Of a stretch of 64,000 nucleotides of DNA, positions 1 to 64,000 are shown in pieces; the stretch's first letter is position 1, and every line of letters begins with the position of its first letter. The notes beneath the pieces are model-generated. The model saw only the letters and a program-made list of their open reading frames with translations, did no database searches and was not told the origin of the DNA. Location of the stretch: the NCBI RefSeq assembly GCF_003124125.1, contig NZ_QCXQ01000001.1, forward strand, positions 292,855-356,854, read 5' to 3'. Origin of the DNA: Levilactobacillus bambusae (lineage in GTDB: Bacteria > Bacillota > Bacilli > Lactobacillales > Lactobacillaceae). A program made the position numbers and the translations under genes.

Positions 1-47
1 TTTGATGGATGCGCCTAATTTTACGTCCGCCACTTTGTCACAAAAAT

Positions 48-21607: not shown

Positions 21608-23044
21608 TTAGAGGGTATCAACATCAATGAGGCCCTTAAATAGGCCGTAAACGAATTCGTTAGGGTCAAACGCCCGTAAATCACCAACTTGTTCACCAAG
21701 TCCCGCAAATTTAACGGGCACGTGAAGTTCGTTGCGAATGGCCAACACAATTCCACCACGCGCCGTCCCGTCTAGCTTGGTTAACACAATTCCAGTGACG
21801 TCCGTGGAATCCTTAAACATTTTAGCTTGGTTTAACGCATTCTGCCCGGTAGTTGCATCGAGTACCAGTAGAACTTCATGTGGGGCTTCTGGGATTTCAC
21901 GGGTAATAATCCGTTTCATCTTTTCCAGCTCATTCATCAGGTTAACCTTATTCTGCAAGCGGCCCGCCGTGTCGATGAATAAGATATCATAATTCTCTTC
22001 TTTAGCCTTCTTAACCCCATCAAACACCACGGCCGCAGGATCACTTTGCGGTTTCCCCACCACAATGTCTACCCCGTCCCGTTTGGCCCAAACATCCAGC
22101 TGTTCCGTTGCGCCAGCCCGAAAGGTATCAGCCGCTGCCAGGAGCACTTTCTTGCCCTGCTTCTTATAGCGCGCCGCCATTTTACCAATGGTGGTCGTTT
22201 TTCCCACGCCGTTAACCCCAACAAATAGGATCACAGTCGGACCATCCTTAGCAAAGTGGACTTCCGTTGACTCACCGTTTCCGGATTCATCATAGATTTC
22301 AACTAATTTTTCAACAATGACGCTTTGAACTTCCTTCGGATTTTTAGCGTTCTTCAATTTAACTTCATCCCGAAGCTCATCGCTAATTCTCATCGCAGCG
22401 TCATAGCCGACGTCCGCTTCAATCAACGTTTCCTCTAAATCATCAAAGAAGCTCTCATCCACGCGCCGAAACTTAGCTAAGAAGGAGTTAAGCCGATCTC
22501 CGAACGAGGTTCTAGATTTCTCAAGACCCCGGTCATAAAGTTCCGCGGTTGAAGTGTCCTCATCGCCATCCTCAGATGACGCCACCGCTTCCTCGTGTGC
22601 CTGAACTTCGGCCGATTCACTGAGTGTAGCTTGCTCTTCTGAAACGGTGACCGCCGCGGAACTTTCAGAGCTCGCTTCCTGAATCTCAACCGGTTCTGAA
22701 TCGGTTGCTGTCACCACTTCTGATTCAGAGTGGGAGGACCCGACAAAATCAGATGGGGCTGACGATTCAAGTTGGGCTTCCTCCGCAGCCGAACTCGACG
22801 TGGCGCTTGTCACCTCTGGTTGGGCAGGCTGGGCATCAGATCCAGCAGCTGAACTTTCAGTCTTCTGATCAGATGTTGCTTCGCTTGACGATGTCGTTAG
22901 TGACTCGTCAGAGTCGCTGCCGGCAGTCGGTACCGCTGAATCCGCACTCGCTGACGTCGCCGCTGTACTATTCGTTACGGGCTCCTCACTGTTAGCTTCC
23001 TCATCCCGTTTCGAACGCCGCTTAAAGATATCGAATAATCCCAT
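21608..23044 (-). CDS. ftsY: Signal recognition particle receptor FtsY
   Basis: This protein of 478 residues is a GTPase that receives SRP-ribosome complexes at the membrane. The NG domain (about residues 175-478) has P-loop GVNGVGKTTTIGKMA, DTFRAGATEQL, DTAGRLQNK and TKLDGTARGG. The N-terminus (MGLFDIFKRR) is followed by a long A domain of about 150 residues made almost only of Ser, Ala, Glu, Asp and Thr, acidic and low-complexity, longer than in Bacillus. It follows smc by 17 bases. Confidence 0.97.
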   Translation of the reverse strand: MGLFDIFKRRSKRDEEANSEEPVTNSTAATSASADSAVPTAGSDSDESLTTSSSEATSDQKTESSAAGSDAQPAQPEVTSATSSSAAEEAQLESSAPSDFVGSSHSESEVVTATDSEPVEIQEASSESSAAVTVSEEQATLSESAEVQAHEEAVASSEDGDEDTSTAELYDRGLEKSRTSFGDRLNSFLAKFRRVDESFFDDLEETLIEADVGYDAAMRISDELRDEVKLKNAKNPKEVQSVIVEKLVEIYDESGNGESTEVHFAKDGPTVILFVGVNGVGKTTTIGKMAARYKKQGKKVLLAAADTFRAGATEQLDVWAKRDGVDIVVGKPQSDPAAVVFDGVKKAKEENYDILFIDTAGRLQNKVNLMNELEKMKRIITREIPEAPHEVLLVLDATTGQNALNQAKMFKDSTDVTGIVLTKLDGTARGGIVLAIRNELHVPVKFAGLGEQVGDLRAFDPNEFVYGLFKGLIDVDTL

Positions 23045-55871: not shown

Positions 55872-56213
55872 TTAATTGGATACTTGTGTCATCGTAATAT
55901 AATCTGAGTAATTGGCAGCTACATCGTGCAACCCGTCTTCAAACGATTGAAGGAGGGTTTGTCCACGATCCTCACGAGTTGAATCGTTTGTTGGCAACAG
56001 TGTGACCCGTAAGTACCCGCCCTCGGTGTCGTTACTATCAACATCCAGGTCGAGTTGGGCAACCCGTTGCAGGCCGTTAACCGTACTAATTGATAGTACA
56101 GAAACCGCCGCACAAACGATATCATGTCCGTAATCGCCAGAATCGGCGTGACCGGTAAGTTTAAAGGCACTGATTTGAGAATCAGCGTTCCGAAAAAACG
56201 TTGCGTGAATCAT
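55872..56213 (-). CDS. prp: L27-processing cysteine protease Prp (YsxB)
   Basis: This protein of 113 residues has His22 in [11 protein letters not shown] and Cys34 in [10 protein letters not shown], the catalytic pair. It cleaves the N-terminal extension of L27 encoded by the next gene. Always found between rplU and rpmA in Firmicutes. Confidence 0.95.
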
Positions 56214-56232
56214 AACAGCCTCGCCTCACTGA

Positions 56233-56541
56233 TTAAGCGTTGATGGCATCAATAACAACCTTCGTGTAAGGTTGACGGTGACCCTTCTTAGTATGTTGAC
56301 CCTTCTTGGCCTTGTACTTAAAAGTGACAACCTTCTTTTCCCGGCCCTGCTTTTCAACAGTTCCAGTAACCGTTGCGCCATCAACAGTTGGCGTTCCGAT
56401 CTTGGTTGTATCACCACCGACAAAGACAACTTGATCAAAGGTAACCTTGTCGCCTGCTTCAACGTTGAGCTTTTCGACGTAAACAGCATCGCCCGCTTGG
56501 ACTTTGTATTGCTTACCGCCAGTAACAATAATTGCGTACAT
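56233..56541 (-). CDS. rplU: 50S ribosomal protein L21
   Basis: This 102-residue protein starts [18 protein letters not shown] and ends [18 protein letters not shown], as L21 does. The ATG at 56541 follows AAGGAGG; a longer upstream frame covers the untranslated leader and is discarded. First gene of the operon. Confidence 0.98.
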
Positions 56542-56692
56542 GAATGTGCACCTCCTTAAAATAGTTAAACTTAGACTCGCCAGAATCGAGTGCTGACTAA
56601 TCAGGCTTAATTGCTCGTTCTGTGCGGTTGCAGCTGTGGAAGTCCACATATACAACAGCTACCAGTATACCCAACTCCGTTAAATCAGTCAA
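56542..56692 (-). promoter_or_regulatory. rplU promoter and L21-type leader
   Basis: On the minus strand -35 TTGACT (56692-56687), a 17-base spacer and -10 TATACT (56669-56664) precede a leader of about 115 bases with several short stems (for example GTGGACTTCCAC). Position and size fit the L21 autoregulatory leader of Firmicutes; not tested with a model. Confidence 0.6.
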
Positions 56693-56705
56693 GATTTAAT
56701 CGACA

Positions 56706-57338
56706 TTAATCCGCACTAAACCAATCGGCCACAATTAACTGGGTTAACTCACGGTGAGTTAGTGACTGGAAGGCTTCATCAACAAAATGGGGGGCGTACA
56801 TCGTATTAACCTCTAACCAATGTGAGGTGATTCCCCGAAATGCAGAGGTTAAAAACGCGGCCTGTAAATCAATTGGGACCGTTAGTTCACCGATCTCTGA
56901 CTGGAGCTGCTGATAAAACTGTTTGACGCCCAACGTTAACCGTTCAGATAGTTGCTTTCGAAACTGAAAGAAATGTTCATTTCGAATTAATAATAAAAAG
57001 AGGTCCCGGCGTTCAGCGACAAACTGTAAGGCCCTAATTAACGAAAAACGTTCGATCTCACCGCTAGCCGTCATTTGCCATTTAACCGGGTCCGTTGCTA
57101 CTAAATTCGCACGTACCCGTGCGCTTTCCAGCCATTCATCGAGCGTCCTTGACATGAGTTGTTGAATAAAGTCATTCTTATCCTGGTAGTGCAGGTAGAA
57201 GGTTCCGCGGGTCACATGCGCTCGGGTGGTTAACTTCTGCACCGAGATTTTCTCCAATGGTGCTTCGTTCATTAAATCAATCAAGGCAGCGGTCAGTTTC
57301 TCTCGGGTTTTCGTCACTCGTGCGTCTAAAGCATTCAT
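56706..57338 (-). CDS. TetR/AcrR family regulator
   Basis: This 210-residue protein has an N-terminal HTH (ALIDLMNEAPLEKISVQKLTTRAHVTRGTFYLHYQDKNDFI, about residues 17-57) and a C-terminal domain of the TetR_C_7/YbiH-like kind (residues 130-205). It lies downstream of the unknown three-gene operon but is separated by a terminator, so it need not control it. Ligand and target are unknown. Confidence 0.82.
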   Translation of the reverse strand: MNALDARVTKTREKLTAALIDLMNEAPLEKISVQKLTTRAHVTRGTFYLHYQDKNDFIQQLMSRTLDEWLESARVRANLVATDPVKWQMTASGEIERFSLIRALQFVAERRDLFLLLIRNEHFFQFRKQLSERLTLGVKQFYQQLQSEIGELTVPIDLQAAFLTSAFRGITSHWLEVNTMYAPHFVDEAFQSLTHRELTQLIVADWFSAD

Positions 57339-57367
57339 TCCAATACCCCCATTATTAAAATTAATGT

Positions 57368-57412
57368 AAAAGCGAAGCCGGTCAGAATCATTTGATCCGT
57401 CCCGCTTCGCTT
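57368..57412 (-). terminator. Terminator after the unknown three-gene operon
   Basis: On the minus strand AAGCGAAGCGGG and CCGGCTTCGCTT arms followed by TT and T-rich sequence. Confidence 0.75.
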
Positions 57413-57424
57413 CTATTATGGCAT

Positions 57425-57916
57425 CTAACCTTGGTTTACCTGTTCCATTTGTGCCTCGAAGGCTTCCCTAATAGCAGTCTCAGATAGCTTTAAGTCTACA
57501 AGCCCAAACTTTAGGTAGAGTCGCCAGGCATGACGAAAATCATCTTGCCGATGTTCAAAATAGCTGTTAAAAATCAGACGTTTAGTAATTAAATAGTGTT
57601 CGTCCCAATCAGAACTGACCTTTGTCTTTAATAACCGTTGATAATCATCCGGCTTCATGACAATCACCTGCGACCAAGTCTGCTTCGCTGCAATCAGCAA
57701 AAAGCCAATTAGACCGGCGGCATAGCGCTGACTTATCTCAGAGACGTTCGCCTCATTGGATAAGTCGGCCGTCGACCTCAGATTAGCTAGAGCCGTATCA
57801 CACTGGACGTACGCCCGCTCCTTACCCTGCTGACCGGATAGCGTCACTTGATGGTTCGCTTTAAACGCATTATCCGCAATAATCGTTTGCTGCAGCATTT
57901 TTGCTAAGTCTAGCAT
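57425..57916 (-). CDS. Unrecognised protein, third gene of unknown operon
   Basis: This protein of 163 residues is soluble and alpha-rich, with no signal peptide or membrane segment. The N-terminal 35 residues (MLQQTIIADNAFKANHQ) and a C-terminal helix (ETAIREAFEAQMEQVNQ) flank a compact middle part with SQRYAAGLIGFLLIAAKQ. I do not recognise the family. It follows the 317-residue gene by 17 bases and is the last gene before a terminator. Confidence 0.6.
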   Translation of the reverse strand: MLDLAKMLQQTIIADNAFKANHQVTLSGQQGKERAYVQCDTALANLRSTADLSNEANVSEISQRYAAGLIGFLLIAAKQTWSQVIVMKPDDYQRLLKTKVSSDWDEHYLITKRLIFNSYFEHRQDDFRHAWRLYLKFGLVDLKLSETAIREAFEAQMEQVNQG

Positions 57917-57933
57917 TCTTTACTCGGTCCCTT

Positions 57934-58887
57934 CTACGTAAACATGAGTGGATCGGATTTAATTTCCAACTGACCAAGGTTGTTCAGGTACCAGTTGCGC
58001 ATAAATTCATATCTCAGAATTACGTCAAACCAGGAAACGGCTTGGTTGGGGTCGTTTACAGCAATTGCCCATTCAGGCGTCCCATCCTTTTGGTTGTCAA
58101 ATACCGTCACAACCACGTCGTCAGGTAGTTGCAGCACTGCTCCCCGGCCCCGATCGGTATTTTGCAGCATATAGCCATTTTCAGCCGCACTCACAAATAA
58201 TTTATCCACGATTTCAGCGCTTAGCTGGGCGTCCTTAACCGGGTAAATTTGGGCGTTAGCCGTATCCAAAATGTTAAAGTCCACGGAAAAGCCGTAATCC
58301 CGTTTTAGATAGGTTCCAAAATCAATCAGCACTTGTAAGGCCGTTTTAATCGTTTGTTCCGGAACGTCTCCTCTGTAATCGATAATAAACAACTGGGTCA
58401 GGGCGTGACTGTTAAACCGCATCATATGTTTTTCTAAGTTCAAGTAGAATAACCGTTGACCAGAAGCTTGCTCTTCGTAAAACACACCGCCGCCCTCATT
58501 ATTCTCCATAATGAAGTCAAACGAACCCCGATCACCTAAACTTGTTAACTGCTGCGATAGTTCTTCACGATGGGGAACCGAATGTAAAATCACCTGTTTG
58601 CCCTGATCGTGAAGTTCTAGTAAACGGCTCATAAATAACAGGTAGTAGTCGGCATTACTATATTGATGAGGGAAAGTCACAAAATCTGAATTTAGCCTAA
58701 AACCGGCCAACTGAGTGGCGGCGGATACCAATTCATCCGGGTTAGCCGTATTGATCAGTTGATCCATCAGCTTAGTAAAGGAAATTCCCTTTTCAAGGCC
58801 GCTTTTAATGGCGTTATTATAGTTCGTCAGTCGCCCACTGGTTGTGAGGGTTGAGACGTCCTTGGACTGTGTTTCATCGTTAGTCAT
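57934..58887 (-). CDS. Unrecognised protein, second gene of unknown operon
   Basis: This 317-residue soluble protein has no signal peptide. A low-complexity start is followed by a mixed alpha/beta body; segments such as FIMENNEGGGVFYEEQASGQRLFYLN and GYMLQNTDRGRGAVLQLPDDVVVTVFDNQ suggest a beta-rich C-terminal half. No catalytic signature is evident. The start overlaps the preceding gene by 8 bases, so translation is coupled. Function unknown. Confidence 0.6.
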   Translation of the reverse strand: MTNDETQSKDVSTLTTSGRLTNYNNAIKSGLEKGISFTKLMDQLINTANPDELVSAATQLAGFRLNSDFVTFPHQYSNADYYLLFMSRLLELHDQGKQVILHSVPHREELSQQLTSLGDRGSFDFIMENNEGGGVFYEEQASGQRLFYLNLEKHMMRFNSHALTQLFIIDYRGDVPEQTIKTALQVLIDFGTYLKRDYGFSVDFNILDTANAQIYPVKDAQLSAEIVDKLFVSAAENGYMLQNTDRGRGAVLQLPDDVVVTVFDNQKDGTPEWAIAVNDPNQAVSWFDVILRYEFMRNWYLNNLGQLEIKSDPLMFT

Positions 58888-59755
58888 TAGACTTCACCCC
58901 CGCTCCAAAGAGGCTGTTCAGATAATCAACGTAAAGGCTTTGATTGTGGGCCTGGAACTTATTAAAGTCGCCAAAGGTCCCCTCAACACTCTGCTTTTCG
59001 TATTCCATAATGGTGTTTTCCTTGGACAAAGCTAGAATTCGATCATCATTTTCCTTAATGGTCTTATTCGAGTTCAATGCCCGCTCGTCTTCATCGGCCA
59101 AGTCGCTGAGTTGATCAATCAACTGTTGCCGTTCTTCTTTGACCTTACCGGAATCCCATGGCATCGTGCTCTTCTGGCTGTTTTCCTTCATCTGAGAACG
59201 AAGAGCCGCCTTTTTCGCATCACGTTCATCCTGTTGATCAATCAAATCCTGCAACTGTTCACTTTCTGCACTGATCTCATCAATCTTATCAGAATTAAGC
59301 CGTTTACCAGACCGAGCCAATTCAAACGTCTGCTGTAACTTATTAAATTCATCTGAATCAAAGTTAAACGCGACGTTTAACACGTCAAGCGAACCGAACA
59401 AGCGCCGATCCCACCAGTTACCGAAGTAAATATGAAACTGACCGAGGGCAAACTCATCGTAGTAGAAAAATGGGTAGGTGTGGCCAAGATAATCAATCAG
59501 CTTTTCACTTAAATAGTGGCTTAATTCGGCATGACTATCCGCAACCAACTGAGCATTTGCCGTTGGCTGAGCTTCAGAGTTGTTTCTAATTTCTTGATCG
59601 TATCGTTGCTGATCCAACAATTCATAGACTTTACGATCATCCTGATTTTGAATGGCGGTTTGTAGGGCTTGTAAGTAACTCAGCTTATTCGCGATAACCG
59701 TATTCAAATTATTATCAGAAGGTTCCGTCGTATGTACATTTTCTTGATTTTCCAT
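58880..59755 (-). CDS. Unrecognised coiled-coil protein, first gene of unknown operon
   Basis: This 291-residue acidic protein has a helical N-terminus, a central conserved-looking aromatic patch (YPFFYYDEFALGQFHIYFGNWWDRR, about residues 93-117) and a long charged coiled coil (about 140-255, with repeated Glu-Gln-Leu-Asp). No Walker motif is present, so labels such as SbcC-like ATPase would not be supported. It opens a three-gene operon whose members overlap or nearly touch. Function unknown. Confidence 0.6.
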   Translation of the reverse strand: MENQENVHTTEPSDNNLNTVIANKLSYLQALQTAIQNQDDRKVYELLDQQRYDQEIRNNSEAQPTANAQLVADSHAELSHYLSEKLIDYLGHTYPFFYYDEFALGQFHIYFGNWWDRRLFGSLDVLNVAFNFDSDEFNKLQQTFELARSGKRLNSDKIDEISAESEQLQDLIDQQDERDAKKAALRSQMKENSQKSTMPWDSGKVKEERQQLIDQLSDLADEDERALNSNKTIKENDDRILALSKENTIMEYEKQSVEGTFGDFNKFQAHNQSLYVDYLNSLFGAGVKSND

Positions 59756-59995
59756 TTATATCCCTCATTCGCATGTTTTACATCCATGAAATGTTATTTA
59801 TACTAGATTAATGTTACCGAAAAAACGCCTAAAGATAAAGCCAAATGGCTAAAATTTCCCGAATCTACAAAAAAAACGCATCCTTTTCTCCCTATTTTGG
59901 GCTCCAATCGTTAAATTTCCCAATTCTCAAGCGAATTAGTATAATTAAGTTGAAACAATTCACAATAATTTATTGAAGATAAGGGAGGTTTTTAT
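59756..59995. promoter_or_regulatory. Divergent intergenic region with DUF805 promoter
   Basis: Between the divergent unknown operon (minus) and the DUF805 gene (plus). A perfect plus-strand -10 TATAAT lies at 59940-59945 with a weak -35; on the minus strand a TATAAA at about 59800 may serve the operon. AT-rich, no further genes seen. Confidence 0.45.
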
Positions 59996-60364
59996 ATGAT
60001 TGAAGCCTACAGAGATTTCTGGAATAATATTCTGAATTTTTCGGGGACTGCAAATCGGCCCCAGTACTGGTGGCCAATTATTATTAACTATATTTTAGGC
60101 GGTCTGATTATTGCCCTGCTTCAAACGACGTTGGGTCATCCCCTTAACGACATTTACAGTTGGCAAGACCTTAGCGTAAATTCCATTGTTCAAGTGGTTG
60201 CAATTATTGTGTGGTTAGGGACCTTATCACTTCGGATTCGCCGGCTCCATGATTCTGATCATTCTGGCTGGTGGGTCTTAATTGATATCATTCCAATTCT
60301 CGGAACGATTTGGTTCTTCATCTTAATGATTTTACCATCCCGGCCAAACCGTTGGGAAATGTAA
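59996..60364 (+). CDS. DUF805 family membrane protein
   Basis: This protein of 122 residues has the family start (YRDFWNNILNFSGTANRPQYWW) and about four hydrophobic segments, with SLRIRRLHDSDHSGWWVLIDIIPILG near residue 80-105, the DUF805 signature. Related proteins (YhaH and others) are inner-membrane proteins of unknown function. AGGGAGG ribosome site. It shares a bidirectional terminator with the glnA remnant. Confidence 0.9.
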   Translation: MIEAYRDFWNNILNFSGTANRPQYWWPIIINYILGGLIIALLQTTLGHPLNDIYSWQDLSVNSIVQVVAIIVWLGTLSLRIRRLHDSDHSGWWVLIDIIPILGTIWFFILMILPSRPNRWEM

Positions 60365-60388
60365 GCAAGGGTTAATCATGGAACCTGT

Positions 60389-60437
60389 AAAAAAGCCTTG
60401 AAACAACTGAATTCCAGTTGTCTCAGGGCTTTTTTGA
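60389..60437. terminator. Bidirectional terminator between DUF805 gene and glnA remnant
   Basis: A nearly perfect inverted repeat (AAAAAAGCC-TTGA-ACAACTG type arms) with A-run and T-run at its ends serves both strands. Confidence 0.9.
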
Positions 60438-60447
60438 TTTATATGTT

Positions 60448-60534
60448 AATACAATTCCAAATACTGATCCCGTTCCCACTGGGAAACTTGGGTGCGGTAC
60501 GAGTTGTATTCCATGTTTTTGGCGGAAATAATTT
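60448..60534 (-). pseudogene. glnA: 3'-end remnant of glutamine synthetase, probable attachment site
   Basis: On the minus strand 28 codons in frame end at a stop: they include SAKNMEYNSYRTQVSQ and WERDQYLELY. This matches the C-terminus of GlnA (Bacillus-type enzymes end in FRTQVHPWEREQY-like sequence). Upstream in frame a stop (60537-60535) breaks the reading frame and the sequence becomes AT-rich phage-like DNA. The terminator beyond the remnant is intact. The natural reading is that a prophage inserted in the 3' end of glnA, the full-length gene being restored at the other end by phage-borne sequence outside the window. Confidence 0.75.
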
Positions 60535-60617
60535 AACGTTTCATAACTTCTCATTAGGACTTAGAATACTTATTTTTAGCTAACTTTCCTTATTCATGTT
60601 TCGCTAGTCCTTGTTAT

Positions 60618-60647
60618 TTCCCACAGAATTGTGGGAAGTTTGTGGGA
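60618..60647. repeat. Inverted and direct TGTGGGA repeats near the junction
   Basis: TTCCCACA (60618-60625), GAAT, TGTGGGAA (60630-60637) form a perfect inverted repeat, followed after 3 bases by a further TGTGGGA (60641-60647). Placed about 90 bases inside the glnA junction, they could be integrase arm-type sites. Confidence 0.4.
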
Positions 60648-60800
60648 CGTAATATATAAATGCTAATTAGGTATATTATTTGTCTTTTGCGGTTTATCCA
60701 GAAAACTAATTGATATCAGAAAAAAGAACAAGAACGGACAACGAGGTAACTAATACAAGAAATAACATCCTTACAATGGTAAATCCATCCATTAAGCAAT

Positions 60801-61010
60801 CTATCTGTTTCGTGGGTCATGTTCACCAGTGGCCGCTTCCATTCCTTCAGCAGTGACAACGATTTGTTTGCCAAATACACGATATGTTCCTTTAGGCCAC
60901 TTTTCAGGAGTATGGTAAATCGATGTACGAACATAAGCGTCATTTTTACCCCATATCTGCGCCGCTTCCTTTGCGCTCAAAATATTAGGATCATTTAAAT
61001 CAATGTGCAT
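60801..61010 (-). CDS. Small helix-turn-helix protein
   Basis: This 69-residue protein has LSAKEAAQIWGKNDAYVRTSIYHTPEKWPKG (about residues 11-41), an excisionase/HTH_59-like helix-turn-helix with a wing (TYRVFGKQIVVTAEGMEAATGE). Such small proteins are common on mobile elements of lactobacilli and streptococci. The ATG at 61010 follows AGGTG; it lies 5 bases after the 27-residue peptide gene, so the two are coupled. It could be the regulator of the operators at 61323-61358 (inference). Confidence 0.75.
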   Translation of the reverse strand: MHIDLNDPNILSAKEAAQIWGKNDAYVRTSIYHTPEKWPKGTYRVFGKQIVVTAEGMEAATGEHDPRNR

Positions 61011-61015
61011 AGTTA

Positions 61016-61099
61016 TCACCTCATCATATTGTAGATTGCTAAAAGTAGTGCCAGAATCGCTAAGATTAATCCGATATTAATTTTGGTAGAATTTTTCAT
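61016..61099 (-). CDS. 27-residue single-span membrane peptide
   Basis: The peptide has a polar start (MKNSTKIN) followed by an uninterrupted hydrophobic span (IGLILAILALLLAIY) and NMMR at the end. The ribosome site is GAGGTG, 6 bases before ATG. It is separated from the 40-residue gene by a hairpin (61132-61160, AAGGGT ... ACCCTT) and ends 5 bases before the HTH start codon. Length and position suggest a membrane-active or regulatory peptide; function unknown. Confidence 0.5.
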   Translation of the reverse strand: MKNSTKINIGLILAILALLLAIYNMMR

Positions 61100-61166
61100 T
61101 TTAATCACCTCATGATATAATATACGGAAATAAGGGTTTGAGTTTATCACTCTTACCCTTTTCCGA

Positions 61167-61289
61167 TTAGCGTTTGAAGATAGTGGTTATCACATTGAGT
61201 AAGAATGACAGGACTCCAATCCAAAACGTCACGCTTGCTTTCACCTCATCTTTTGAACGCTTTTTCTTGTGCTTCGGTTTATGGCTCAT
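61167..61289 (-). CDS. 40-residue cationic membrane peptide
   Basis: The peptide has a strongly basic N-terminus (MSHKPKHKKKRSKDE) and one hydrophobic segment (VTFWIGVLSFLLNVITTIF) ending in KR. It has an excellent ribosome site (AAGGGAGGTG) and a promoter with a -35 TTGATT and 17-base spacer just upstream. Prophage-borne holin-like toxins have this shape, but no family is assigned. Confidence 0.6.
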   Translation of the reverse strand: MSHKPKHKKKRSKDEVKASVTFWIGVLSFLLNVITTIFKR

Positions 61290-61316
61290 GGTTATCACCT
61301 CCCTTAGCACACTTTT

Positions 61317-61358
61317 ATAATAACACGGTATAGTGTTATAATCAACACTTTATCGTGT
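61317..61358 (-). promoter_or_regulatory. Operator-controlled promoter of the small-peptide/HTH operon
   Basis: On the minus strand -35 TTGATT (61345-61340), a 17-base spacer and -10 TATTAT (61322-61317). Two copies of ACAC-N6-GTGT occur, at 61323-61336 (inside the spacer) and 61345-61358 (over the -35), their centres 22 bases apart, two helical turns. A dimeric repressor binding cooperatively would shut this promoter. Confidence 0.7.
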
Positions 61359-61371
61359 AATTATTGCAATA

Positions 61372-61521
61372 AAATAACCCCCACCCGAAATTAATCGAGT
61401 GAGGGATTAATATATGTAGGCCTCTTGGCGACCAAGCACAAGAGGGCACAGAAAAGCTACCAAGACAATCTATTAGCCTAATAGATTTATGTGAAGAAGC
61501 CAATCTCCACAAATCTCTCTA
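61372..61521 (-). ncRNA. Candidate antitoxin small RNA, about 150 bases
   Basis: On the minus strand -35 TTGATT (61555-61550), a 16-base spacer and perfect -10 TATAAT (61533-61528) predict a start near 61521. The RNA has no convincing reading frame. It contains a perfect 9-base hairpin (61467-61487), a second hairpin with 7-base stem and 11-base loop (61421-61445), and ends at a terminator (61378-61406; 11-base stem, loop TTAATT, then T-rich). Its 5' part reads GAGAGATTTGT, the exact complement of 61706-61716 in the peptide gene. Confidence 0.6.
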
Positions 61522-61629
61522 ACTGTTATTATAAGGTACCATATTTTAAAATCAACTGATTATCTCAATTTGTAATAAAATTAATAGTTCAATGATTTGT
61601 CAACTCATTTATTTTAATATTTTTTCTGT

Positions 61630-61700
61630 TACAATATGAACAGGCGACATTTTCAATCGCCTTGCCAGCGAAATGGTCGCCTAGAAGGAGCCTCTCTTCG
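61630..61700 (+). promoter_or_regulatory. Promoter and structured leader of candidate toxin
   Basis: A -10 TACAAT (61630-61635) with a weak -35 predicts a start near 61642. The leader forms a stem between GGCGAC-ATTT (61643-61652) and AAATGGTCGCC (61671-61681) and then presents the ribosome site GAAGGAG (61684-61690). Such 5' stems that slow translation are common in type I toxin mRNAs. Confidence 0.5.
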
Positions 61701-61781
61701 TTGAAACAAATCTCTCGTTTCATCTTTTTATACGTAATATTACCACTCGTAATTAATTACGTCTCATCTGTTCTTTTTTAG
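61701..61781 (+). CDS. Candidate type I toxin, 26-residue hydrophobic peptide
   Basis: The reading frame starts with TTG, 10 bases after GAAGGAG, and encodes a short basic start (MKQISR) followed by an uninterrupted hydrophobic span (FIFLYVILPLVINYVSSVLF). The pattern VILPLVINY recalls the VIAPIFVG core of Fst/Ldr toxins but is not a clear match. Codons 2-6 contain ACAAATCTCTC, repeated in the antisense-directed small RNA gene at 61509-61519. A terminator follows at 61821. Confidence 0.5.
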   Translation: MKQISRFIFLYVILPLVINYVSSVLF

Positions 61782-61820
61782 GATAGCATGACAAACTATA
61801 GGACGCAACCGATGCGTTCG

Positions 61821-61856
61821 GCCCCCGGAACTTAGCCAGTTTAGGGGGCTCTTTTA
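61821..61856 (+). terminator. Terminator of the candidate toxin mRNA
   Basis: GCCCCCGGAAC (61821-61831) and GTTTAGGGGGC (61839-61849) form a stem with one mismatch, followed by TCTTTT. Confidence 0.8.
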
Positions 61857-61861
61857 ATTAC

Positions 61862-61979
61862 AGCAAAAAGCCCCCCACTCAAAATTAATCGAGTGAGGGG
61901 CTTTAGTATGATGGATCAAGAGAGTTTTGCTACTTATTGAGAGAACATGAACGTATCTACGTGATTGCGCCATAGGTAC
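61862..61979 (-). ncRNA. Second candidate small RNA ending in a copy of the antitoxin terminator
   Basis: On the minus strand -35 TTGTTC (62014-62009), a 17-base spacer and -10 TACTAT (61991-61986) could start an RNA near 61979. It ends at 61867-61902, a hairpin nearly identical to the terminator of the first small RNA (shared core ATTAATCGAGTGAGGG on the plus strand) followed by TTTTT on the minus strand. It would converge on the toxin mRNA. No coding capacity is evident. Confidence 0.4.
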
Positions 61980-62040
61980 ACTCATATAGTACTTCGATTT
62001 CATTTTCTGAACAACTATTTAGACTCATTTTTAATAACAA

Positions 62041-62080
62041 AAAACAAAGCAGCCCTCACGTCCTGTGAGAACCACTTTGT
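62041..62080 (-). terminator. Terminator of the phage structural operon
   Basis: ACAAAG ... CTCAC and GTGAG ... CTTTGT arms form a long imperfect stem followed on the minus strand by six T. The 100 bases between it and the BppU stop codon show no gene. Confidence 0.8.
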
Positions 62081-62182
62081 CCTATAACCATCAACATGAA
62101 AAGATAATCGATAAAACTTGGATTTCGCTTCCTAACAATAACATTCTATCTTTAATCTCTTGTGTCAGGCAAGCATATAGAC

Positions 62183-63496
62183 TTACTCTTTTTCAGCAGC
62201 GCCTAAAGTGATAGCGTCTGCTTTAGTAATGGCGCCGATCTGGTACATCTTCATGACAAAGTCCGATGACGTACCGCCGACTGGTGCGCCAGTAGTAGCT
62301 TGGCAACCGGTATAGTCTAGATCATCTCCAGGCCGCAACGGGTTACCGATAGTGATGTTTCCCCAGTTAGGTGTGACATCTACTGTCGAGGCCTTTAAAA
62401 CGTTGATTTTTAGCGTTCCAATCGAAAGCATAAGCACTGTTTGAGGCCAACCTAGGCCATACGAAATCGGCTGACCACTGTAGACGTTATACCCACTACC
62501 GTAGCCAAAACCACCTTCGCTTACCGTGTTGGCGGTATTTATAAGGGTTGCTCCATTATCAAAACGCGCTACCCATGGGTTACCACTTCGATCTAGTGAA
62601 AAGGAGCTCGGCGCACGTGTTGGTTTGGTTGATGGTTTTAAACTATCCAGCCAGTCTTGCTCTGTACCTGTGAATCCGTTCGCTACGGCGATATCATACG
62701 CTGACTTACCATCTTGTCCAGATATCCCTTGAGTTCCCTGAATACCCTGTAAGCCTTGGGGGCCTTGAAGTCCCGTTGCCCCAGAGAAGTCCGTCAAGAA
62801 GTTAAAACTAGATCCGTTCCAACTAAAAAGCTTCGAGTTGTCAGTGTCCTCAACATCCGATGAGATCATGACGAGGTCGCCGTCTGTCAAGCCAGCACCA
62901 GCGCTAGCCGTCATCTCTGCTATAGAAGAAAAGGTTTTAGTGATAGACATGGCCTTTCCTTGTGGCCCTTGTTCGCCTTGGATGCCTTGTGGGCCTTGAG
63001 CGCCTGTTTCACCCTTTGGCCCAGCATCCCCGGTGTCACCTTTCAGTCCGTGAACCGAGTTGGCAAGAAAATCTGCGACTGTTTGACTGGTTTCATTTTT
63101 CAGCTTCTCAAACTCTTGGATAAACGCTTCGAGGGTCAGTGACGAGATGACACTACCGCTGATCCCCATTGAGTTCGCATTGATACTAAGGGAGATAAAT
63201 CCCCGATCGGGAAAGATAGATTCACCGGTACGGCTAGTGATCCATAGCTCTAAGTCGTACATCCCCGGTGGTAGTTGGGTTAAGCTACCAGTGGAAAAAG
63301 TGAAGCTGTTGGATTTGTCATCAAAACTGGCCGGATACCGGCCCACAAAGCCATCGCTATTTTTGAGTTTTACCTCGGCAGACTGTCCATCAGTTAAAAC
63401 AACCTGCATTCCATTTTCGATTGCACTAAGTTCGATACTCGTCGCTGTGTCACCGAATTTAACGCTTTCGCCTGTAAGTAAGCTGAGAATTTTCAT
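62183..63496 (-). CDS. BppU-like phage baseplate protein with collagen-like repeats
   Basis: This 437-residue protein has an N-terminal domain (about residues 1-110: KILSLLTGESVKFGDTATSI, LPPGMYDLELWITSRTGESIFPDRGFISLSIN) of the BppU/baseplate upper-protein type of lactobacillus phages, two collagen-like Gly-X-Y stretches (about 150-181 and 239-263), the segment KSAYDIAVANGFTGTEQDWLDSL common in tail-fibre proteins, and a beta-rich C-terminus (300-437) that may bind the host surface. The ATG at 63496 follows AGGGGGTGG; a longer upstream frame has no ribosome site. Confidence 0.85.
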   Translation of the reverse strand: MKILSLLTGESVKFGDTATSIELSAIENGMQVVLTDGQSAEVKLKNSDGFVGRYPASFDDKSNSFTFSTGSLTQLPPGMYDLELWITSRTGESIFPDRGFISLSINANSMGISGSVISSLTLEAFIQEFEKLKNETSQTVADFLANSVHGLKGDTGDAGPKGETGAQGPQGIQGEQGPQGKAMSITKTFSSIAEMTASAGAGLTDGDLVMISSDVEDTDNSKLFSWNGSSFNFLTDFSGATGLQGPQGLQGIQGTQGISGQDGKSAYDIAVANGFTGTEQDWLDSLKPSTKPTRAPSSFSLDRSGNPWVARFDNGATLINTANTVSEGGFGYGSGYNVYSGQPISYGLGWPQTVLMLSIGTLKINVLKASTVDVTPNWGNITIGNPLRPGDDLDYTGCQATTGAPVGGTSSDFVMKMYQIGAITKADAITLGAAEKE

Positions 63497-63905
63497 CTCT
63501 ACCACCCCCTTTATTTTGTGTGTCCAGTTGCTCCAGTAGCTCGTTAATTCGACCCTTAAGCTCACCGATTTGCTTAGTAAGCTTGTCAATCACGCCGGAC
63601 TGCTCCTTTATGGTCTTGGATTGCTCCTTGATCTGCTGCGACTGGGCTGTGATCTGACTGGTTTGGATTTTGATTTGAGCCGACATAGTGGAGATTTTAG
63701 TATCCTTCTCCCCAATCAAGTCGAGGTTCTTACGTGCTTCATCCTGCATATCTTGCACGGTTTTAATCATATCTTGAAGCTGGCTAAAAATTAGGGACTG
63801 ATTGCTAGTATCAGCAGTTTGGCTCTTCTGTTCATAAGTAAACCAACCGGCAATTACACCACCGGCTACAGTCAAGAAGGTCGTGATGATACTAGTCCAC
63901 TCCAT
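63459..63905 (-). CDS. Membrane-anchored coiled-coil phage protein
   Basis: This 148-residue protein has one N-terminal hydrophobic segment (IITTFLTVAGGVIAGWFTY, about residues 5-23) and then a long coiled coil rich in Gln, Lys and Ile (about 40-125; repeated SQQIKEQSKTIKEQ). The start at 63905 follows GGAGGTGAG; it overlaps the next upstream gene by 14 bases and the BppU gene by 38 bases. Topology resembles small lysis or tail accessory proteins, but no family is recognised. Confidence 0.7.
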   Translation of the reverse strand: MEWTSIITTFLTVAGGVIAGWFTYEQKSQTADTSNQSLIFSQLQDMIKTVQDMQDEARKNLDLIGEKDTKISTMSAQIKIQTSQITAQSQQIKEQSKTIKEQSGVIDKLTKQIGELKGRINELLEQLDTQNKGGGRDENSQLTYRRKR

Positions 63906-64000
63906 CTGGCTCACCTCCTGCCCATGCTTCAAGTGCGATTCGAATCGTTACCACTAGCATGAGATACGTCAAAAGGTTTACATGACCATGAATTTCATAG
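63892..64000 (-). CDS. Partial phage gene at the window edge (C-terminal end only)
   Basis: An open frame enters from the right edge on the minus strand and stops at 63892. The visible 35 residues include a hydrophobic stretch (NLLTYLMLVVTIRIALEAWAG) and end in GGEPDGVD. It overlaps the 148-residue gene by 14 bases, as expected inside a compact phage operon. Identity unknown; a small membrane protein such as a holin is possible. Confidence 0.5.
   Translation of the reverse strand, partial: YEIHGHVNLLTYLMLVVTIRIALEAWAGGEPDGVD

Follow-up and report, generated by a model that had tools for sequence, protein, structure and literature searches.

Organization of the locus at the prophage end

The window, that is, the whole 64,000-nucleotide stretch of DNA analysed here, comes from contig C1 in a genome of 1.97 Mb. 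Its gene content suggests the Lactobacillaceae, and the Lpt-like toxins found in the genus hint at Lacticaseibacillus. A prophage has inserted at the 3' end of glnA: the last 22 glnA codons are repeated at 60446-60514, and the intact glnA is found about 46 kb away, past the integrase. The duplicated glnA 3' end marks the prophage attachment site. Genes that we read as terminase, capsid, tail and endolysin-type genes lie between the two glnA copies, and the prophage in glnA, with the cassette described below at its end, is apparently complete.

The cassette consists of a candidate toxin gene and a small RNA gene pointing away from it. It is flanked by a tail fibre gene (62183-63589) on one side and by an excisionase-like gene (60801-61019) on the other. 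Two small membrane-peptide frames with good ribosome sites, 61016-61099 and 61167-61289 on the minus strand, are located upstream of the excisionase-like gene. The layout of these two frames is resembled, by eye, in the prophages L034, L042 and L043. In L042, a syntenic prophage end from another genome, the small-peptide stretch is followed nearly directly by a gene read, by eye, as a tail fibre gene, and the cassette is absent, which gives the pair the look of a separable insert. No megablast match in the phage collection was obtained for the 20-kb stretches L031 and L032.

The antitoxin-like small RNA, about 140-150 nt in length, is predicted to start near 61521 and to be read from the minus strand (61372..61521). 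Its promoter (TTGATT-16-TATAAT, 61555-61528) and its terminator (61405-61378, hereafter T1), both of which had been read from the sequence in the earlier note, were found by the promoter and terminator scan. The promoter agrees with the consensus at 10 of 12 bases. Sites of this kind are frequent in the region scanned (8 found, against 6.0 expected). The fold z-score of the small RNA was -4.32 with the terminator and -1.81 without it, and the latter, unremarkable value was counted against a type I pair. An Rfam search of 56000-64000 returned within 61370-61860 only NsiR1 (61370-61426), scoring 23.4 bits where the gathering score is 39, which was taken as a chance match to the terminator hairpin.

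The predicted toxin mRNA is 216 nt long (61642..61857, plus strand), and its fold z-score was -5.22, or -2.49 without the terminator. The promoter that had been proposed for it holds in part. An extended -10 element, TGTTACAAT, was read by eye at 61627..61635 (plus strand), but the -35 element is poor and the promoter is absent from the scan hits. The weakness of this promoter and the TTG start codon of the frame were both counted against a type I pair. The mRNA ends in a predicted terminator hairpin at 61820..61850 (plus strand; -18.5 kcal/mol with flanks) followed by the tail CTCTTTTAAT; it was seen in the fold and is absent from the terminator scan hits.

The 5' stem of the mRNA, which like the terminator had been noticed earlier, was recovered in the predicted folds. 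The stem, AGGCGAC/GTCGCCT, is located at the extreme 5' end (61642..61682, plus strand), as is the 5'-UH of par. It has 6 pairs in the full-length MFE structure, 7 in the centroid structure and 7 when the terminator is left off; it is retained in the cofold and appears in every fold of the 5' part of the mRNA. The Shine-Dalgarno (SD) sequence AAGGAG is seen at 61685-61690 (plus strand). A predicted hairpin enclosing it, GAAGG-AGCCTC-TCTTC (61684..61699, plus strand), resembles the 5'-SL of par, and forms both in the MFE structure without the terminator and in the start region folded alone. In the full-length MFE structure this hairpin is absent and the SD pairs with the 3' tail of the mRNA instead. 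In both versions of the predicted fold the ribosome site is paired inside the mRNA. A further predicted hairpin (61702..61722, plus strand) carries an open 9-nt loop, AAATCTCTC (61708-61716), the probability of which to be unpaired (0.86) ranks 2nd among the 208 9-mers of the mRNA.

The toxin-like frame MKQISRFIFLYVILPLVINYVSSVLF (61701..61781, plus strand) has 26 codons, is hydrophobic and is preceded by a ribosome site, as had been claimed; it forms the 3' part of an ORF listed from 61662. Small frames were sought by criteria of our own: a length of 18-45 codons, one of the listed SD hexamers lying 4-11 nt upstream of the start codon and, for hydrophobic frames, a mean hydropathy over 16 residues of 1.8 or more. 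In the window, 18 such frames have a ribosome site; the 6 hydrophobic ones among them fall at four places. The toxin-like frame is one of these four places, and two others are the neighbouring prophage peptides. When the mRNA segment was shuffled 2000 times, the combination of an SD and a hydrophobic small frame never arose, the threshold having been chosen with the frame in view. Directly after the toxin stop there is a 15-codon frame, MTNYRTQPMRSAPGT (61788-61835), with AGGA a few bases 5' of its ATG. This frame may be translated after the toxin.

Predicted antisense pairing at the start of the candidate toxin

An exact 11-base direct repeat, ACAAATCTCTC, is present at 61509-61519 and 61706-61716, and the two copies are complementary when read from opposite strands. 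The core of this match is the open AAATCTCTC loop. A match of at least 11 bases was obtained in 6 of 1000 dinucleotide-shuffled pairs of whole transcripts and in 0 of 1000 pairs without terminators. The earlier note had described this match as an exact complement of toxin codons 2-6. The match is indeed exact, but the pairing is larger than described and includes the ribosome site. The 11-base match alone is weak evidence, and is one end of a longer pairing.

The full pairing was computed by folding the first 42 bases of the small RNA against the toxin start region, the duplex prediction for which the earlier note had called. It comprises 25 bp between small RNA nt 3-29 (minus strand, 61519-61493; direct-repeat copy 1) and the toxin mRNA from the SD to codon 6 (plus strand, 61684-61716; direct-repeat copy 2), with a predicted duplex energy of -35.8 kcal/mol. 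The duplex is built of three blocks. Block 1, GAAGGAGCC, lies on the ribosome site with 9 pairs, one of them G-U; block 2, UCUUC, has 5 pairs, again with one G-U; and block 3, ACAAAUCUCUC, covers codons 2-6 with 11 pairs, the longest continuous helix in the pair. Between blocks 2 and 3, a 6-base bulge, GUUGAA, includes the start codon, which is looped out. The match is thus positioned over the ribosome site and the opening codons of the frame next to it, and its register is right. Two shorter complementary patches that had been listed in addition, GGCGAC/GTCGCC and GCCTCT/AGAGGC, do exist, but they are out of order for a single duplex and are not needed for it.

A duplex as good was found in 1 of 5000 shuffled pairs and in 0 of 3000 when the target alone was shuffled. 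Since the start region was picked after the 11-base match was known, these figures are somewhat generous, and a scan of the whole window (45-nt windows, step 3, both strands, with plus-strand windows on the small RNA's own first 42 bases excluded) is the fairer test. Among 42,610 windows the best target of the small RNA was the toxin start; the four windows at or below -35.8 kcal/mol all overlap it. The next unrelated site, 22480-22527, was about 3.5 kcal/mol worse (-32.5).

When the folds of the two RNAs themselves were taken into account, the net cofold gain was -16.9 kcal/mol, with 3 of 1000 shuffles as good, and on short segments -15.4, with 14 of 2000 as good. By single-helix accessibility, a stricter score, the whole transcripts gave no significant result: 27 of 200 shuffles did as well, as did 21 of 300 once the terminators were removed. 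At the start region it was modest (score -6.2; 4 of 300 shuffles as good), and the par control L071 scored more strongly than the window pair, with -8.64 at the start and -10.38 at the terminator.

Terminator repeats, relatives and the par loci of the genus

T1 has a second copy, hereafter T2, just past the toxin terminator (61857..61899), which was not among the elements listed in the earlier note. T1 in its full extent (61363-61405) and T2 are 43-nt direct repeats with 81% identity that bracket the pair. Their 17-base core occurs at these two sites only in the genome, with up to 2 mismatches allowed; a weaker likeness at C1:244369-244395 is another terminator, by eye. With gaps, the homology covers 61353-61416 and 61850-61913 and then ends, and extensions beyond the terminator were no better than shuffles (399/500 and 426/500). 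By eye, the shape of T2 (an A-run, a G+C stem and TTT) is like that of the shared par terminators of the genus. T1 on the minus strand is complementary to T2 on the plus strand, loops included. A toxin mRNA reading through its own terminator would therefore carry a par-like terminator contact.

Beyond the pair, a further short RNA may be read from the minus strand of 61866-61984; it would end at T2, and a weak promoter-like sequence for it can be made out by eye. This second, convergent small RNA (61984-61866) was considered as a par-type antitoxin and rejected; its z-score without the terminator was -0.16, and it showed no favourable pairing with the toxin mRNA.

No relatives of the pair were found in searches of family genomes, phages and plasmids. 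The peptide matched 0 Pfam families at E <=1 and no NCBIfam or PHROGs family. Fifty-nine relatives searched with the cassette DNA gave just 3 weak non-self matches of 23-25 nt. In 397 family genomes there were 34 non-self places at E <=0.01, of which 31 fall inside the AT-rich stretch between the two RNAs; two of the 34, L096 and L090, were inspected and are unrelated. The peptide gave 23 weak non-self matches in the same 397 genomes, with a best E of 0.04. For thirteen of these 23 (L009, L010, L012, L013, L017, L018, L019-L023, L025 and L026) the matching strand was translated, and none except L018 held a comparable framed peptide. L018 is equal in length and stop, but it runs antisense within a 608-codon gene and has neither a repeat at its start nor a terminator, and was therefore taken as chance. 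Phages and plasmids yielded only weak DNA matches of 28-49 nt (12 and 2 records, respectively) and no tblastn match. Pattern scans gave 0 and 0 in viral records, and in genomes 0 and then 2 exact 19-mers, in records titled Ruminococcus and Flavonifractor; simple counting predicts about two such matches.

A Fst/Lpt-like toxin query matched 28 places in 17 of 36 genus genomes, and none in the window's own genome. Twenty-six of the 28 loci, all except L131 and L133, were given to the repeat finder. By our tally, 19 of the 26 have a direct repeat across the toxin start with a second copy 172-204 nt downstream, which is the convergent par layout. The other 7 showed no such repeat at the settings of the tool; L111 (the same place as L076) shows one by eye. 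A canonical convergent Fst/Lpt-like pair (MIQYFFAPLAVALLSAWFAHWLDRHDCK, with a 22-nt repeat) was also observed in a genus relative at L057:2757-2962, about 1.05 kb from an excisionase-like gene.

These loci served as yardsticks for the pairing. By the same folding, convergent RNA II against the toxin start gave -41.7 for L106, -40.8 for L074 and -19.4 for L073, and extra copies located upstream of the toxin in three loci gave -19.4, -20.3 and -24.4. The window duplex of -35.8 is nearer to the two strong convergent pairs than to the third or to the upstream copies. The net gains were -30.2, -23.6 and -7.3 for the convergent pairs and -6.2, -13.1 and -13.7 for the upstream copies; the -15.4 of the window pair is much weaker than two of the convergent controls and slightly stronger than the extra copies at -13.1 and -13.7.

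Some of these par loci have unusual layouts. L106 has a terminator and RNA II on both sides of the toxin (1205-1323 and 1632-1748, about 426 nt apart), and its upstream RNA II is divergent from the toxin, with a TATACT -10-like site. L073 (the same place as L112) carries a terminator, a repeat and TATAAT upstream of the toxin, and its terminator repeats are 325 nt apart. Of the two RNA II copies of L073, the upstream one is the better fit to the toxin start (-24.4 vs -19.4; -22.3 vs -15.0 on slightly different segments). In L074 (the same place as L109) the repeat occurs a third time, upstream, with no obvious promoter. Apparent tandem units of a par-like toxin and terminator, about 201-208 nt apart, were observed in L127, L128 and L129. 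Because of these layouts, the step from convergent to divergent order has visible intermediates in the genus. The extra upstream RNA II in two genus par loci suggests how the divergent order may have originated.

Relation to known systems and interpretation

The pair resembles the par-type systems. Lpt/RNAII, from plasmids of Lactobacillus rhamnosus and L. paracasei, has a 29-residue hydrophobic peptide, a 5' helix, a stem-loop on the ribosome site and an antitoxin RNA complementary across the toxin start over 24 nt (PMC5608710). The present pair shares the hydrophobic peptide (26 residues), the 5' helix, the ribosome site paired in the predicted folds and the complementarity across the toxin start, here 27 vs 33 nt with a 6-nt gap. 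In contrast to Lpt/RNAII, in which the RNAs converge, the RNAs diverge here. In a comparison with Lpt-like peptides of the genus, the peptide shows no kinship with these. With par of pAD1 (Fst/RNA II; PMC7472228) the pair has in common direct repeats that span the toxin start and are transcribed from opposite strands, the 5'-UH in predicted folds and a ribosome site paired within the mRNA. Like both par and Lpt, it combines a predicted 5' stem with an antitoxin promoter stronger than that of the toxin. Two par features are absent: an Fst-family toxin (PF13955) and convergent promoters with a shared bidirectional terminator. In par of pAD1, the promoters converge on one shared terminator, whereas here the promoters are divergent and the terminator is present in two copies; the review PMC7472228 calls convergent promoters with a bidirectional terminator highly conserved in par-like loci. 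Unlike pAD1 par, the window's genome gave no match to the Fst profile, PF13955, at E <=1; the profile is a weak one, since 0 of 36 genus genomes pass its cut-off despite clear Fst-like peptides. A frameshifted Fst toxin was considered and rejected, as the T-run in the other frames (by eye) has no charged tail and there is no Fst similarity.

In its divergent antitoxin gene, the small RNA and limited pairing, the pair resembles zorO-orzO, shoB-ohsC, tisB-istR and dinQ-agrB of E. coli (PMC4147584, PMC3919570). The pairing of OrzO is located at the 5' end of the small RNA (same sources). The antitoxins of these systems, however, pair in a long 5' UTR, off the start site and coding sequence (PMC4147584); the small RNA found here covers the SD and codons 2-6. 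The pairing length also differs. The E. coli divergent systems pair over 18-21 nt, and in ZorO-OrzO a continuous helix of 15 bp was enough while one of 12 bp was not (PMC3919570); the 11 continuous bp here are under the roughly 15 needed there. As to the toxins, the peptide has no Pfam, NCBIfam or PHROGs match. Since the pair lacks two par features and two features of the E. coli divergent systems, we call it a type I variant that is par-like in its control. The literature searched, which lacked most subscription papers, describes type I pairs of divergent order from E. coli; a par-like pair of that order was not found in it.

The computed evidence, namely the start-covering antisense match, the 5' stem and the paired ribosome site, supports a divergent par-like type I pair at the level of sequence and folding, as the earlier note had proposed. 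The best explanation, which we consider likely, is a type I toxin-antitoxin pair carried by the prophage, with control like that of par/Lpt and a permuted gene order. Several results weigh against it: the searches above gave no relatives, the whole-transcript accessibility scores lie within the shuffle range, the net gain on short segments falls short of two convergent controls, the next unrelated site in the window is only about 3.5 kcal/mol worse as a target, the longest continuous helix has 11 bp, and the SD hairpin is missing from the full-length MFE structure. From the sequence elements, the predicted folds and the antisense match with its specificity, the following mode of action may be proposed, in which transcription, the block of translation, toxicity and the role in prophage maintenance are all putative. 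The weak promoter would give an mRNA for a 26-residue membrane peptide. This mRNA would start closed, with the stem holding its 5' end and the ribosome site paired internally. The stronger promoter, pointing away, would give the antisense RNA, the first 29 bases of which would pair with the mRNA over the ribosome site and onward through codon 6, preventing translation of the peptide. The first contact may be made by loops, either AGCC against GGCU or the open AAATCTCTC loop against the 5' end of the small RNA. Upon loss of the prophage or decay of the antitoxin RNA, the peptide would be made and would harm the membrane; such harm after prophage loss would keep the prophage in the population.

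A narrower form of this explanation is that the cassette is a circularly permuted par locus, in which the par control scheme governs a toxin of a new family and the antitoxin gene has moved from downstream to upstream of the toxin. In its strict version, a convergent pair was duplicated, the upstream antitoxin and the downstream toxin were kept between the terminator copies, and the toxin diverged past recognition. The direct repeats T1 and T2 bracketing the pair, with a core unique in the genome and, by eye, the par-terminator shape of T2, agree with such a rearrangement, as do the similar layouts of L106 and of L073, where the upstream RNA II fits better. Against it, the T1/T2 homology ends at the terminator, no recognisable RNA II remnant is found past T2, the toxin has its own terminator ahead of T2, and the similarity of the peptide to four Fst-like peptides of the genus is at the level of shuffled peptides (173 to 805 of 2000). 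We hold the permuted locus as a tentative reading and would give the strict rearrangement somewhat less than an even chance.

Two other readings depart further from a toxin-antitoxin pair. The peptide could be real and no toxin, for instance a superinfection-exclusion or membrane peptide, with the small RNA an ordinary antisense regulator. Because the frames at 61016-61099 and 61167-61289, with their ribosome sites, adjoin the cassette, this prophage end carries several membrane peptides, as such a reading would have it; a closed mRNA with an antisense RNA on its start site, however, is the design of a par toxin mRNA (PMC7472228), and we regard a non-toxin peptide as unlikely. It could also be argued that two unrelated transcripts lie side by side with a chance match in AT-rich DNA and that the frame is non-coding, given that no homologues were found and that the whole-transcript accessibility scores lie inside the shuffle range. 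Such a coincidence would have to place the pairing on the ribosome site and the first codons in the right register, at a quality reached in 1 of 5000 shuffles, and is very improbable.

A prophage-borne pair with par-like control would add a candidate peptide toxin without a known family. If the permuted par locus is true, the control scheme would need the direct repeats alone and no converging transcripts, and the duplicated par loci of the genus would give rise to such forms. A Lacticaseibacillus survey sought converging antitoxin RNAs and reports Lptlike2 toxins with none predictable (PMC8003834). If divergent par-like pairs exist, they can escape surveys of this kind, and the RNA II copies located upstream of toxins in the genus would be candidates for working antitoxins.
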